From contig JFNH01000100.1 in assembly GCA_000634415.1 (NCBI GenBank), positions 1 to 55,457 on the forward strand: a DNA stretch of 55,457 nucleotides, read 5' to 3'. Below are positions 2,034 to 33,290 of this stretch, in pieces; the first letter of the stretch is position 1, and every line of letters starts with the position of its first letter. The translations under genes and the position numbers were made by a program. Below the pieces are notes generated by a model. It did no database searches, was not told the DNA's origin, and saw nothing but the letters and a program-made list of their open reading frames with translations. Origin of the DNA: Prochlorococcus sp. scB245a_519A13 (GTDB lineage: Bacteria > Cyanobacteriota > Cyanobacteriia > PCC-6307 > Cyanobiaceae).

Positions 2034-3068
2034 ATGTCTTCTAATCTATCAAACGCTGAAATCCTAAATAATTTGTTGGAGGGAAGGGACCTTGATGAAT
2101 TAACTTCAAGATCTTTAATGCAAAGATGGCTTAATGATGAAATTTCAGATGTTGAGACAGGAGCTTTTTTGAGTGCTTTGAGAGCAAAGAGTTCTACAGG
2201 GGTCGAACTAAGTTCTATGGCTGAGGAACTCTTAAATGTTTGCGAATTACCAGTAGCAAGACCAAATTTGTATTTGGTAGATACTTGTGGAACAGGGGGT
2301 GATGGAGCTAATACATTCAATATTTCAACTGCAGTTGCATTTGTAACTGCATCTTGTGGTGTAAAAATTGCAAAACACGGAAATAAAAGTGCTAGTGGAA
2401 AAGTTGGCTCTGCTGATGTTTTGTTGAATCTTGGTTTGAATTTAAATTGTTCATTAGAAAAAGTAATCAAAGCAGTAAGTGAAATTGGAATAACTTTTTT
2501 ATTCGCACCGGTTTGGCATAAATCTTTAATAAAACTAGCTCCATTAAGAAAAACTCTTGGAATAAGGACAGTATTTAATCAACTTGGACCATTGGTAAAT
2601 CCTTTAAGACCCAATGCACAAGTTTTGGGTGTTGCTTCTGAGGATCTTTTAAAACCTATGGGAAGCGCGCTTTTAAAAATGGGTATGAATAGAGCAATAG
2701 TGGTTCATGGCTCTGGTGGCCTTGATGAAGCTTCGCTTCAAGGAGATAATAAATTAGTGTTTGTTGATAATGGTGAATTACTTTTTTCAGAAATAAATAT
2801 TTCACAATTTAACCATGAAAATATATCTAACGAAAAGCTTGTGGTTTCTGATCTTGAGTCTAACGAGGAAATATTAAAGTCTGTCTTAAATGGTTCTGGA
2901 CAAAAATCTCATATTGATGTGGTTGCTTTGAATTCTGCTTTAGTGCTTTGGGCCGCGGGTATTGAGGATGATTTAAATGAAGGATTTAATAAAGCTTTAT
3001 TTTCGATAAATCAAGGAGATCCTTGGAAAAAGTTTTTGCTTTTAAAAGATTATTTACATACAAATTAA
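2034..3068 (+). CDS. trpD: Anthranilate phosphoribosyltransferase
   Basis: TrpD transfers the phosphoribosyl group of PRPP to anthranilate, the second step of tryptophan synthesis, in the cytoplasm. The 344-residue length is normal for the family. The PRPP-binding Gly-rich motif [15 protein letters not shown] is at about residues 84-98, and the substrate loop [17 protein letters not shown] follows at about 116-132. A second conserved stretch, GPLVNPLRP, is also present. The start is an ATG at 2034. The gene stands immediately before carA with about 13 bases between them, so the two are probably cotranscribed; other trp genes are not in this window. Confidence 0.97.
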
Positions 3069-3081
3069 TTAATCTAAATTG

Positions 3082-4221
3082 ATGATTCATCCATATAAAA
3101 AAAACGCGAAATTGGTTTTAAGTAATGGAATTGTATTCCCAGGATTCTTTTTTGGTGCTTCTGGTACTGCTATTGGTGAAATAGTTTTTAATACGGGAAT
3201 GACTGGATATCAGGAAGTTATTACTGATCCAAGTTATTATGGACAAATATTAACTTTCACTTATCCAGAGATTGGAAATACTGGTATTAATTTTGAAGAT
3301 TCAGAATCTAATATTAATGTTAAAGGTATAATTGTTAGAAATTTTTCATCTAATAGCAGCAATTGGAGATCTAAAAAGAATTTTAATCAATGGTTAGTCG
3401 AGAACAATATCATAGGTCTATATGGAATTGATACAAGGGCTCTTGTTAAAATTTTAAGATCTAGTGGTGCGATGAATGGAGTTATTACCTCTCTAGATAA
3501 AACTGATGAAAGTTGTTTAAAGATAATTTGTGATACGCCAAAGATGGAGGGATTAAATTTATCAAAAGTTGTTTCTACAAAGCAACAATATTTATGGAAA
3601 AGTCATACTCAAACAAATTTTGATTTAAGAAAAAAATATAGTGAATGTTCTAAAAAATTAAAAATAGTAGCAATTGATTTTGGAATTAAAAATTCAATTC
3701 TAAATAGACTTGTATCCCATGGTTGTGAAGTTTTGGTTTTACCTTCTTGTACTTCTCTAAATGATGTTCTTTCTAACAAGCCGGATGGTATATTTTTCTC
3801 AAATGGTCCAGGCGATCCTTCTTCTGTTTCTGAAGGTATAGACTTAGCAAAATCACTCATTGAATATGGTGAAATACCTATGTTTGGAATTTGCCTTGGC
3901 CACCAAATATTTGGATTAGCATTAGGAGGTTCAACTTATAAATTACCTTTTGGACATCGTGGCTTAAATCATCCTTGTGGTGAAAATAATAAAATTGAGA
4001 TAACTAGTCAGAACCATGGTTTTGCTATTGATCCCAATTCACTTTCAAAAAACATAGTCAGAATTACCCACTATAACCTAAACGATAATACTGTAGCTGG
4101 CCTAGAGGTTTATGATAAACCCATATTTAGTGTGCAATATCATCCAGAAGCAGGTCCTGGCCCACATGATTCAGATTATTTGTTTAAAAAATTTGTTTCT
4201 CTTATGTTAGAAAGATGTTGA
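3082..4221 (+). CDS. carA: Carbamoyl-phosphate synthase small (glutaminase) subunit
   Basis: CarA hydrolyses glutamine and passes ammonia to CarB to make carbamoyl phosphate for pyrimidine and arginine synthesis. The 379-residue protein has the N-terminal CPSase small-chain domain (GTAIGEIVFNTGMTGYQE) and a C-terminal class I glutamine amidotransferase domain. The nucleophile Cys is in GICLGHQIFG and the catalytic His-Glu is in QYHPEAGPGPHDSDY. A TTG lies directly before the ATG; I chose the ATG at 3082, which gives MIHPYKKNAKL. The large subunit gene is not in the window. Confidence 0.96.
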   Translation: MIHPYKKNAKLVLSNGIVFPGFFFGASGTAIGEIVFNTGMTGYQEVITDPSYYGQILTFTYPEIGNTGINFEDSESNINVKGIIVRNFSSNSSNWRSKKNFNQWLVENNIIGLYGIDTRALVKILRSSGAMNGVITSLDKTDESCLKIICDTPKMEGLNLSKVVSTKQQYLWKSHTQTNFDLRKKYSECSKKLKIVAIDFGIKNSILNRLVSHGCEVLVLPSCTSLNDVLSNKPDGIFFSNGPGDPSSVSEGIDLAKSLIEYGEIPMFGICLGHQIFGLALGGSTYKLPFGHRGLNHPCGENNKIEITSQNHGFAIDPNSLSKNIVRITHYNLNDNTVAGLEVYDKPIFSVQYHPEAGPGPHDSDYLFKKFVSLMLERC

Positions 4222-7978: not shown

Positions 7979-8989
7979 ATGGCTTTCGTTCCTCTTCATA
8001 ATCATAGTGACTACAGCTTGCTTGATGGTGCCAGTCAAATTTCAAAAATTGTTGATAGAGCTTGTGATCTTGGAATGGAATCGATAGCTCTTACTGATCA
8101 TGGAGTTATGTATGGTGTTCTTGATTTGGTCAAGAAGTGTAAAGAGAAAGGTATAAAACCAATTATTGGTAATGAAATGTATGTGATTAATGGTTCTATT
8201 GATGATCCTCAACCAAAAAAAGAAAAAAGATATCATTTGGTGGTGTTAGCGAAAAATTATACTGGATATAAGAATCTAGTGAAGTTAACAACAATTAGTC
8301 ACCTAAATGGGATGAGAGGTCGAGGAATTTTTTCTAGACCATGTATTGATAAATCTCTTTTAAGCAAATATAGTGATGGTCTGATAGTTTCTACAGCTTG
8401 TCTAGGTGGAGAGATACCTCAGGCTATTTTAAAAGGTAGATTAGACGTAGCAGAAGATATAGCTGTTTGGTATAAAAAATTATTTGCAGATGACTTTTAT
8501 CTAGAAATACAAGATCACGGTTCTATTGAGGATAGAATTGTTAACGTTGAATTAATAAAAATTGGGAAGAAGCATCAAGTAAAAGTCATAGCGACCAACG
8601 ACGCACACTACTTATCAAGTATGGATGTTGAAGCACATGACGCTTTACTTTGTGTATTAACAGGAAAACTAATAAGTGATGAAAAAAGATTGAGATATAC
8701 CGGTACAGAATATATTAAAAGTGAAACTGAAATGCTTGAACTTTTTAAAGATCATATTGATGATGAATCAATTATTGAGGCAGTTAACAATACAGTAGAA
8801 ATATCTCAGAAAGTTGAAGAATTTGATTTGTTTGGCAATTATAGAATGCCAAAATTCCCTCTTAAAGAAGATACAGATTCATTTTCTTTCCTTACACAAT
8901 TATCTAATAAAGGCCTTTTAAAAAGACTTAAAAAAATGATCTTACAGAAGTTGATGAGAACTATAAAAAAAGACTATCTTCCGAATTAA
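7979..8989 (+). CDS. dnaE: DNA polymerase III alpha subunit, N-terminal fragment (PHP domain)
   Basis: This is the 5' part of the replicative polymerase gene. It begins with the PHP domain ([16 protein letters not shown], then [10 protein letters not shown]), as all DnaE proteins do. Family-like sequence runs to about residue 317 ([11 protein letters not shown]). After an A7 tract the reading frame continues into unrelated residues and stops at 8987-8989. A one-base restoration joins it to the downstream frame to give about 1165 residues, the normal cyanobacterial DnaE length. A TTG lies two codons upstream, but the ATG at 7979 gives the expected MAFVPLH start. Confidence 0.9.
8930..8936 (+). 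other. A7 tract where the dnaE frame breaks
   Basis: Seven A bases follow CTT. With eight, the frame would read Leu-Lys-Lys-Asn-Asp-Leu-Thr-Glu and run directly into the downstream DnaE frame. With seven, the upstream frame exits to a stop at 8987. The downstream frame is closed by a TAA at 8929-8931, so the junction must be at or just after this tract. Confidence 0.85.
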
Positions 8990-9003
8990 AAATTATTAAA
9001 GAT

Positions 9004-11475
9004 ATGGGCTTCCCAGATTATTTTTTGGTTGTTTGGGACTACATCAAATTTGCTAGAGATAACTCTATCCCTGTGGGACCAGGTAGAGGTTCTGCAGCAG
9101 GCTCATTAGTAGCTTATGCTCTTCAAATTACAAATATAGATCCTGTTGAGCATGGATTGTTGTTTGAGAGATTTTTAAATCCAGCAAGAAAGTCAATGCC
9201 AGATATTGATACCGACTTTTGTATTGATAGGAGAAATGAAGTTATAGATTATGTTACTAATCGTTATGGAGAGGATAAAGTTGCACAAATAATTACTTTC
9301 AATAAGATGACCTCTAAGGCGGTTTTAAAAGACGTCGCAAGGGTTTTAGATATACCATATGGAGAGGCGGACAAATTGGCTAAGTTAATACCGGTTGTAA
9401 GAGGGAAACCTTATAAATTAAATGAAATGATTGACAAGAATACTCCTAGCCAAGAGTTTAGAGAAAAATATATTAATGATAATAGGGTGAAAAAATGGGT
9501 TGATTTGGCTTTGAGAATTGAAGGAACTAATAAAACATATGGAGTTCATGCTGCTGGAGTTGTTATCGCATCAGATCCTCTTGACGAACTTGTACCTCTT
9601 CAAAGAAATAATGAAGGGCAAATAATAACTCAATATTCTATGGATGATATCGAATCACTTGGATTATTGAAAATGGATTTCTTAGGTCTAAAGAATCTGA
9701 CAATGATTGAAAAAACAGTTTCTCTAATTAATCAATCTACGGGAAGGAAAATAAACATTGATGAGTTACCACAAAATGATGGTAAGACCTTTGATCTTAT
9801 CGGGAGAGGAGATCTTGAAGGTATTTTTCAACTTGAATCTTCCGGTATGAAACAGGTTGTTAGGGATTTCAAACCTAGCTCTCTAGAGGATATTTCGTCC
9901 ATATTGGCTCTTTATAGACCTGGTCCTCTTGATGCAGGCCTTATACCTAAATTCATAAATAGAAAAAATGGGAACGAAAAGGTTGATTTCCCTCATCCAT
10001 TTATTAAGTCAATCCTCACTGAAACCTATGGAATTATGGTTTACCAAGAACAAATCATGAAAATTGCTCAAGACCTAGCCGGTTATTCTCTGGGTGATGC
10101 TGATTTACTTCGAAGAGCAATGGGGAAAAAGAAAGTTTCTGAAATGGTAAAGCATAGGAATATTTTTGTAGACGGTTCCATGAAGAAAGGTGTAAATGAA
10201 AAATTAGCTAATGATCTTTTTGATCAAATGGTTTTATTCGCAGAATATTGTTTTAACAAGAGTCACTCAACTGCTTATGGTGCCGTAACTTATCAAACTG
10301 CATTTTTGAAAGCCCATTTTCCTGTTGCATATATGGCAGCCCTTTTAAGCGTTAATTCTGGCTCTAGTGACAAAATGCAAAGATATATTTCTAATTGTTA
10401 TTCCATGGGAATAGATGTTATTTCACCGAGCATTAATTTTTCTGGTGTTGATTTCACTATTAAAAATAATCAGATTTTATTCGGGTTATCTGCAATTAAG
10501 AATTTAGGAGATTCTGCAATAAGAAATATAATTGAAAACCGAAATAGTTTTGGAACCTTTAATTCATTATCAGATTTGTGCGACCGTTTGCCTTCTAATG
10601 TTCTTAACAAAAGAAGTCTTGAATCTTTAATTCATTGTGGAGCATTAGATGAGTTTTCTAATGATAATAATAGAGCTCAGTTATTGTCAGATCTTGAACA
10701 TGTTATTGAGTGGGCCTCTTCAAGAAATCGTGATAGATTATCAGGGCAAGGAAATCTATTTGACTCTAATGAAGAATTTTCTAATGTTGCTTTTTCAGAT
10801 TCACAATTAGCTAAGGTTGATGATTATTCACTTATTGAGAAATTAAAGTTAGAAAAGCAGCTATTAGGCTTTTACTTATCTGATCATCCTTTAAAGCATT
10901 TAACTAAACCCGCAAAACTTGTATCACCTATAAACATTTCGCAGTTAGAAGAAACAAAAGATAGAACCAAAGTTTCTTTAGTTGGAATGATCCCTGATTT
11001 AAAGCAAATTACAACGAGAAAAGGAGATAGGATGGCTATAGTTCAGCTTGAAGATCTTTCTGGCAGTTGCGAAGCAATAGTTTTTCCAAAAACTTATGTC
11101 AGATTATCCGAATTTCTATTGACTGATACTAGATTATTGTTTTGGGGAACAATAGATAAAAAAAGTGATAAGACTCAATTAATAATTGATGATTGCAGAG
11201 AAATAGATAACCTTAAATTGCTTATTATTAATCTTGAAAGTTCTCAAGCATCAGATGTAAGAGTACAAAATACTTTAAGAAACTGTTTAACTAAATTTAA
11301 ACCAGATAAAGATAGATGTGGGAACAAGATTCCAGTTTTAGCTGCAGTAAGAAATGAGCATAGTGTTACTTACGTTAAATTTGGCGATCAATTCTGTATT
11401 GGAGATATACAAGGTGCATGCAAATTATTAAAAGAAAATTCATTCCAAGTTAACTTGAAATCTTTAGTTTCCTAG
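9004..11475 (+). CDS. dnaE: DNA polymerase III alpha subunit, polymerase-domain fragment
   Basis: This is the larger, C-terminal part of DnaE. The conserved frame is already open from 8932, before the ATG at 9004. It contains the polymerase core (GPGRGSAAGSLVAYAL), the catalytic aspartates in MPDIDTDFC, the fingers and the helix-hairpin-helix region. A likely beta-clamp binding motif QGNLF precedes an OB fold (VSLVGMIPDLKQITTRKGD). The known cyanobacterial split-intein site, between Tyr and Cys of AEY-CFNKSHS (bases 10248/10249), is uninterrupted, so an intein does not explain the break. Without the PHP domain this part alone is unlikely to replace DnaE. Confidence 0.93.
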   Translation: MGFPDYFLVVWDYIKFARDNSIPVGPGRGSAAGSLVAYALQITNIDPVEHGLLFERFLNPARKSMPDIDTDFCIDRRNEVIDYVTNRYGEDKVAQIITFNKMTSKAVLKDVARVLDIPYGEADKLAKLIPVVRGKPYKLNEMIDKNTPSQEFREKYINDNRVKKWVDLALRIEGTNKTYGVHAAGVVIASDPLDELVPLQRNNEGQIITQYSMDDIESLGLLKMDFLGLKNLTMIEKTVSLINQSTGRKINIDELPQNDGKTFDLIGRGDLEGIFQLESSGMKQVVRDFKPSSLEDISSILALYRPGPLDAGLIPKFINRKNGNEKVDFPHPFIKSILTETYGIMVYQEQIMKIAQDLAGYSLGDADLLRRAMGKKKVSEMVKHRNIFVDGSMKKGVNEKLANDLFDQMVLFAEYCFNKSHSTAYGAVTYQTAFLKAHFPVAYMAALLSVNSGSSDKMQRYISNCYSMGIDVISPSINFSGVDFTIKNNQILFGLSAIKNLGDSAIRNIIENRNSFGTFNSLSDLCDRLPSNVLNKRSLESLIHCGALDEFSNDNNRAQLLSDLEHVIEWASSRNRDRLSGQGNLFDSNEEFSNVAFSDSQLAKVDDYSLIEKLKLEKQLLGFYLSDHPLKHLTKPAKLVSPINISQLEETKDRTKVSLVGMIPDLKQITTRKGDRMAIVQLEDLSGSCEAIVFPKTYVRLSEFLLTDTRLLFWGTIDKKSDKTQLIIDDCREIDNLKLLIINLESSQASDVRVQNTLRNCLTKFKPDKDRCGNKIPVLAAVRNEHSVTYVKFGDQFCIGDIQGACKLLKENSFQVNLKSLVS

Positions 11476-32105: not shown

Positions 32106-33290
32106 TTGACAGAAGCAAAACTTATTTCGGCTTTAAATGAAGAGAATTTATCTCATTTCTCAAAGACTTATGTTCCCTCAAGACTTTTATTAGGTCCTGG
32201 TCCTTCAAACGCTCATCCAGAAGTCTTAAGCGCTCTATCTTTGAATCCTATTGGTCACTTAGATGAAGCATATATTTCATTGATGTCTGATGTTCAACAG
32301 CTTCTAAGATATACCTGGCAATGTAATAATCGTCTGACTCTTCCAATGAGTGGTACTGGAAGTGCAGCTATGGAAGCATCAATAGCTAATTTTATAGAGG
32401 AAGGAGAAAAAATTCTTATCGCTAAAAAAGGATATTTTGGAGACAGACTTGTTGATATGGCAACAAGATATAAAGCAGATGTATCTGTTATTGAAAAACC
32501 CTGGGGCGAATCCTTTTCTTATGAAGAAATCAAGTATGAAATAGAAACTAAAAAACCAGCAATTTTTGCTATTGTCCATGCTGAAACATCAAGTGGTGTT
32601 TTACAACCTCTTGATGGTATTGGGGATGTATGTAGAAAAAATAACTGCTTGTTTTTAGTTGATGCAGTTACTTCTCTTGGAGCTCTAGAACTATTGATTG
32701 ATGAATGGAAAATTGATCTAGCATACAGTTGTAGTCAAAAAGGATTAAGTTGTCCCCCAGGATTAAGCCCTTTTACGATGAATAAAAGAGCTGAAGAAAA
32801 ACTAAGTTCAAGAAAAACAAAAGTACCTAACTGGTATTTAGATTTATCTCTTTTAAATAAATATTGGGGTTCTGATCGCGTTTACCATCATACGGCCCCT
32901 GTAAATATGAATTTTGCTATTCGAGAAGGTTTAAGATTAATTGCAAATGAAGGTTTAGAGAATGTTTGGTATAGGCATAATTCTAATGCAAAGAAACTTT
33001 GGAAAGGTTTAGAAAGTCTAGGAATGGAATTACATGTATCAGAGGATTATCGATTGCCAACTCTTACAACAGTTAAGATCCCACCTGCCGTTGATGGAGA
33101 TGGTTTTAGAAATCATCTTTTAAGAAACTTTGGAATAGAAATTGGAAATGGACTTGGAGAATTATCTGGTAAGGTATGGCGAATAGGATTAATGGGCTAT
33201 AACTCAAGTGATGAGAATGTCGACAGATTATTAAACCTATTTGATACTGAGTTAAAAAAATATTCTATTTTTGAGTCCTCAACTTTTTAA
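32106..33290 (+). CDS. Class V aminotransferase, alanine/serine-glyoxylate type
   Basis: The 394-residue PLP enzyme belongs to the alanine-glyoxylate/serine-glyoxylate family, which removes glyoxylate formed in photorespiration. The N-terminal LLLGPGPSNAHPEVLSAL and MSGTGSAAMEASIANF are typical, and the PLP Lys is in YSCSQKGLSCPPG. The start is TTG at 32106. Its last 26 bases overlap tadA tail-to-tail. Confidence 0.92.
   Translation: MTEAKLISALNEENLSHFSKTYVPSRLLLGPGPSNAHPEVLSALSLNPIGHLDEAYISLMSDVQQLLRYTWQCNNRLTLPMSGTGSAAMEASIANFIEEGEKILIAKKGYFGDRLVDMATRYKADVSVIEKPWGESFSYEEIKYEIETKKPAIFAIVHAETSSGVLQPLDGIGDVCRKNNCLFLVDAVTSLGALELLIDEWKIDLAYSCSQKGLSCPPGLSPFTMNKRAEEKLSSRKTKVPNWYLDLSLLNKYWGSDRVYHHTAPVNMNFAIREGLRLIANEGLENVWYRHNSNAKKLWKGLESLGMELHVSEDYRLPTLTTVKIPPAVDGDGFRNHLLRNFGIEIGNGLGELSGKVWRIGLMGYNSSDENVDRLLNLFDTELKKYSIFESSTF

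Follow-up and report, generated by a model that had tools for sequence, protein, structure and literature searches.

The dnaE locus

The window considered here, a stretch of 55,457 nucleotides from Prochlorococcus sp. scB245a_519A13, is contig C100 of a draft genome (G000) that comprises 1,149,563 bases in 222 contigs and is scored as 67% complete. On its forward strand the window harbors dnaE (7979-11475), which encodes a PHP part followed by a polymerase part, the two being read in different frames. The PHP part (7979-8989, forward strand) begins with an ATG at 7979 and extends over 336 codons to a TAA at 8987-8989. The polymerase part (8932-11475, forward strand) is composed of 847 codons and a stop. 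The two pieces give complementary matches to NF005617, the 1170-position family model for DNA polymerase III alpha, with the PHP part accounting for positions 1-327 and the polymerase part for positions 320-1168. The Pfam assignments are similarly divided: PHP is found in the first piece, and DNA_pol3_alpha, the finger domain, HHH_6 and the OB domain tRNA_anti-codon are found in the second.

The site at which the two frames part is, by direct reading of the letters, a run of seven A at 8930-8936 on the forward strand. In the PHP frame this A7 run is read as CTT AAA AAA ATG, and the final codons of the PHP part, 3' of the run, lie outside the DnaE frame. In the polymerase frame the triplet just before 8932 (8929-8931) is TAA, and the earliest ATG is found at 9004. 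Three further A7 runs occur within dnaE, at 8215, 8965 and 11158. A preliminary description of this DNA had already assigned the break to the run at 8930-8936, and the stop of the PHP frame and the opening of the polymerase frame bear this out. It had also proposed that one added A would give a protein of about 1165 residues, which agrees with the unsplit DnaE of two relatives, at 1165 amino acids in G003 and 1167 amino acids in G007 by longest-ORF calls.

A family-model search of five genomes, including the draft, found one unbroken dnaE in each of G003, G007, G011 and G048, and no dnaE in the draft beyond the two adjoining pieces. As far as its sequence tells, the gene is free of decay outside the A-run, with private residues that fall inside the range of its relatives: 3 in 317 codons and 2 in 845 codons, as compared with 0-18 (28 usable relatives) and 1-9 (29 relatives), respectively.

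Among other cyanobacteria, a dnaE that is split in two is known, with products joined by split inteins. The arrangement in the window resembles this in having two coding pieces, but these lie in a single locus, where they overlap at one A-run, and the relatives have a single frame. Neither piece matches an intein family in Pfam or NCBIfam, and splitting of the intein type was rated as unlikely on this ground.

The junction in related genomes

Searching 266 genomes of the genus with the polymerase part gave matches in 219, and the closest relatives were taken from the matches listed. In the 29 closest relatives among these listed matches, the window's own being left out, the open frame encompasses 1149-1189 amino acids, and the frame therefore passes upstream through the junction. 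It is open over the junction in 29 of the 29, and in each of them the junction is made up of eight bases: AAAAAAAA in 27, AATAAAAA in one and AAAAAAAG in one. The number of A bases in close relatives, to which the preliminary description had pointed as informative, is thus eight in 27 of the 29 closest among the matches listed, as against seven in the window. The exact A8 form is found in 93 of 265 genomes of the genus. The A7 form in its context is present in only 1 of 266, which is the draft itself, and is not kept in related lineages.

Beyond these 29, five of the matches listed have frames of less than 1100 amino acids (G062, G091, G094, G133 and G216). In four of the five the match starts within 752 bases of the start of a contig, and the frame of the fifth, G133, reaches 1046 amino acids because its contig ends 599 bases past the match. 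A wider set of 109 loci was made up of the 29 closest among the matches listed together with 80 from named genomes, with some genomes represented in both sets; the nearest loci in the named genomes belong to Prochlorococcus or to related uncultured cyanobacteria. The junction could be found by its motif in 75 of the 109 loci, and all 75 are open over 25 residues upstream or to the limit of the contig. The other 34 are too divergent for the junction motif and stand outside this open-frame count.

A second broken gene

The draft contains a second gene that is broken in a similar manner. This is alaS, encoding alanine--tRNA ligase (TIGR00344), which lies on contig C4 (C4:19153-21811) and is split at C4:19871. 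In the draft it is read in two frames that part at an A8 run; the counterpart in G003 and G007 is A7. The gene is an unbroken frame of 886 amino acids in G003, G007 and G011, and gave no match in G048, a genome that is 75% complete. The A8 form of alaS is present in 1 of 265 genomes of the genus, again the draft. No second copy of alaS was found in the draft, and counterparts of a third, weak match (34 bits) exist in the relatives. Both dnaE and alaS belong to families that are established as essential.

Frame-changing indels and run lengths

The window was compared with six relatives (G003, G007, G011, G048, G123 and G129), and two frame-changing indels are private to it with respect to every relative that covers the site: one near 3075 (5 of 5) and that of dnaE (6 of 6). 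Over the window region, genes of 120 amino acids or more were tested for reading in two frames; one gene of the window, dnaE, proved to be split, and this was seen with the gene sets of all six relatives. The same test over the same region gave zero splits in G003, G011, G048, G123 and G129 and one in G007. The split in dnaE is beyond chance.

The indel at 3075 is a one-base deletion located between the ORFs 2034-3068 and 3079-4221; the longest ORF of both G003 and G007 begins further upstream and covers the counterpart of this position. The gene split in G007 encodes 394 amino acids and is unbroken in the window (32106-33290). On contig C2 of G007 it is read in two frames with about 30 residues matched twice, which looks like an out-of-frame internal duplication.

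The draft is probably an amplified single-cell genome, and 16 of 33 sampled contigs have lengths of 202-623 bases. G003 and G007, which we infer to be cultured isolates, are each scored as 100% complete and consist of 3 and 5 contigs, respectively. Six large contigs of the draft (505,688 bases) were compared with these two genomes; 440,477 bases are covered by both, and 379,901 lie in ORFs of the draft. For contig C1 the relatives cover just some 7 kb, at the ends of their own contigs. The small contigs stand outside this comparison, as does C106 (28,716 bases), the first 3,000 bases of which match the relatives only in scattered pieces.

Private frame-changing indels within ORFs number, in raw counts, 8 in the draft, 13 in G003 and 10 in G007, so that there is no raw excess in the draft; in the two relatives, many such indels lie close together in twos or threes, with the frame restored, or else fall at gene ends. 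Clean splits were also counted, these being genes read in two frames only, with those having stops inside one alignment set aside. Many of the genes set aside look like differences in start extension, and one of them, an 861-amino-acid gene of G003 with five stops, looks like a locally compensated shift. Placing 345 genes of G003 on the draft gave four clean splits (dnaE, C4:19871, C98:56589 and C96:13582), and placing 355 genes of G007 on the draft also gave four (dnaE, C4:19871, C98:56589 and C4:84213). Between the two relatives, the 364 genes of G003 placed on G007 gave one, the 394-amino-acid gene, and the 367 genes of G007 placed on G003 gave none. The 3 to 5 two-frame splits in around 380 kb of coding sequence amount to about one per 100 kb.

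The splits other than dnaE and alaS are of a different kind. At C98:56140-57053 the relatives have a 304-amino-acid gene with weak, below-cut-off matches of a biotin/lipoyl-like nature, and the draft has two frames in comparison with both G003 and G007. The gene at C4:83263-84686, which encodes an outer membrane efflux protein, is divided between two frames in the draft, as seen against G007 only. Both of these splits (C98:56589 and C4:84213) lie away from long runs and may represent true variation, in genes that are less constrained than dnaE and alaS. The split at C96:13582, in a gene of 256 amino acids with a TTG start, is found against G003 only.

Run lengths were compared at 943 coding A/T runs of at least 6 bases with clear counterparts in both relatives, the runs having been picked from the draft, which is a source of bias. 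Private changes in run length among them number 3 in the draft, 3 in G003 and 1 in G007. The notion of a draft riddled with run-length errors was rejected on these private counts and on those of the frame-changing indels. In total, nine run changes touch ORFs, and the only ones among the nine to break long genes in mid-body are those in dnaE and alaS. What distinguishes the draft is not the number of its indels but these two mid-gene breaks in essential genes. The three changes of G003, the one of G007 and two of the draft (C96:33288 and C96:61871) alter the length of the ORF by just 3-6 nt, as though genes could tolerate slippage at runs near their ends and nowhere else. The change at C102:60341 of the draft concerns a 198-nt ORF that the relatives have and the draft lacks.

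Weighing the explanations

The preliminary description had offered three explanations for the break: a wrong base count, rescue by transcriptional slippage, or two polypeptides that assemble. The possibilities that leave the draft sequence as correct begin with a real deletion, a private mutation newly arisen in the sorted cell, deleterious or lethal, and caught before selection had purged it. Runs of A are the commonest sites of indels, as found in the part of a laboratory evolution study that bears on this (PMC3812077), and the lack of further decay in dnaE is what would be seen with a very recent mutation. However, alaS must then have been broken in the same cell too, and neither the A7 form of dnaE nor the A8 form of alaS is present in any other genome of the genus that was searched, which leaves a real deletion improbable. 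A real frameshift could alternatively be offset by slippage of RNA polymerase at the A-run, adding an A in some transcripts. The genome stretch is A/T-rich, and rescue of this kind is known from A/T-rich endosymbionts: a review describes, in the passages available, how slippage at long poly(A) runs corrects 12-50% of transcripts in Buchnera and Blochmannia, which live in insects (PMC5009743). In addition, tssM1 of C. rodentium carries a run of 11 A (PMC4256274). In these cases, as in the window, a frame is broken at an A-run within A/T-rich sequence, but the runs reported there are long, of 9-11 A or more, whereas that in dnaE has seven and is shared by no relative examined. For bacteria, the same review also describes slippage where A or T is repeated 9 times (PMC5009743). 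Bypass of indels at 8A and shorter repeats has been recorded in the laboratory study, in which most recorded bypasses are nonetheless at runs of at least 10 A (PMC3812077), and some low-level slippage may accordingly take place at A7. Against a frequent process, the six large contigs carry 987 A/T runs of at least 7 bases and dnaE itself has its three additional A7 runs, so that frequent slippage at A7 would be expected to damage many transcripts. Among the titles and the beginnings of abstracts in one literature collection, no case in Prochlorococcus of slippage, of a frameshift in dnaE or of a poly-A tract of this sort was found. Slippage, which has no positive support, is a very unlikely account of dnaE. 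Odds longer still attach to the extended form, in which dnaE and alaS both have true one-base frameshifts and the cell lives by slippage of RNA polymerase or the ribosome at runs of 7-8 A; were it true, the reach of slippage rescue would grow to take in short runs and a free-living, A/T-rich cyanobacterium.

The remaining two explanations concern translation and assembly, and the chance of either is close to negligible. To move out of the PHP frame and into that of the polymerase part calls for a -1 shift, and the A-rich codons AAA AAA would be the place for ribosomal frameshifting to join the two. Yet no X XXY YYZ heptamer is in register, as T precedes AAA AAA and ATG follows, and the 100 nt downstream (8937-9036) fold no better than shuffled sequences in a pseudoknot-free model (z 0.87; 163 of 200 shuffles do as well or better). 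The shift is, moreover, found in no relative examined. For separate PHP and polymerase chains that assemble into an enzyme, the position of the break, which sets the PHP domain apart from most of the polymerase domains, would be suitable, and an ATG is on hand at 9004. A start at this ATG, though, would forfeit 24 polymerase-frame codons whose conservation in the relatives is good, neither piece matches an intein family, and zero of the relatives examined are split, so that this proposal of the preliminary description is left without support.

A probable one-base error in the draft

The wrong base count is, of the three explanations first offered, the best supported, since the shift is seen in the draft alone, the closest relatives among the matches listed are open over the junction, and alaS is broken in mid-gene. 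Two of the marks that would be expected of an artefact are thereby in evidence: absence from the relatives (1 genome in 266, with 29 of the 29 closest among the matches listed open) and a further implausible break in the same draft, that of alaS, with overall indel counts that are not raised. We consider it highly probable, from comparison of the sequences, that the split in dnaE reflects a one-base error from amplification, sequencing or assembly. An A-run that is one base short in the draft would split the gene, and such a loss could arise during whole-genome amplification, during sequencing or during assembly. The living cell would then most likely have an ordinary single-frame dnaE, as its relatives do. 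A cell with both dnaE and alaS broken would, we infer, be unable to grow, and it is because a second essential gene is broken likewise in the same draft that an error, rather than biology, is the most likely cause. An essential gene of a draft genome can thus look broken at an A-run, which is a matter for caution; the relatives, together with another essential gene found broken in the draft, are enough for error to be suspected ahead of slippage.

A point of comparison is provided by the single-cell workflow of Berube et al. 2018 (PMC6122165), applied to the same genus, for which the available portion of the paper gives a rate in benchmark cultures of 3.0 indels per 100 kbp. The draft is akin to those assemblies in its genus, its fragmentation and its one-base indel, and its rate of splits does not exceed 3.0 per 100 kbp. 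It differs in that the workflow, as set out in that portion, kept only contigs of more than 2,000 bp, and the contigs of 202-623 bases in the present draft make it likely that it came from another workflow.
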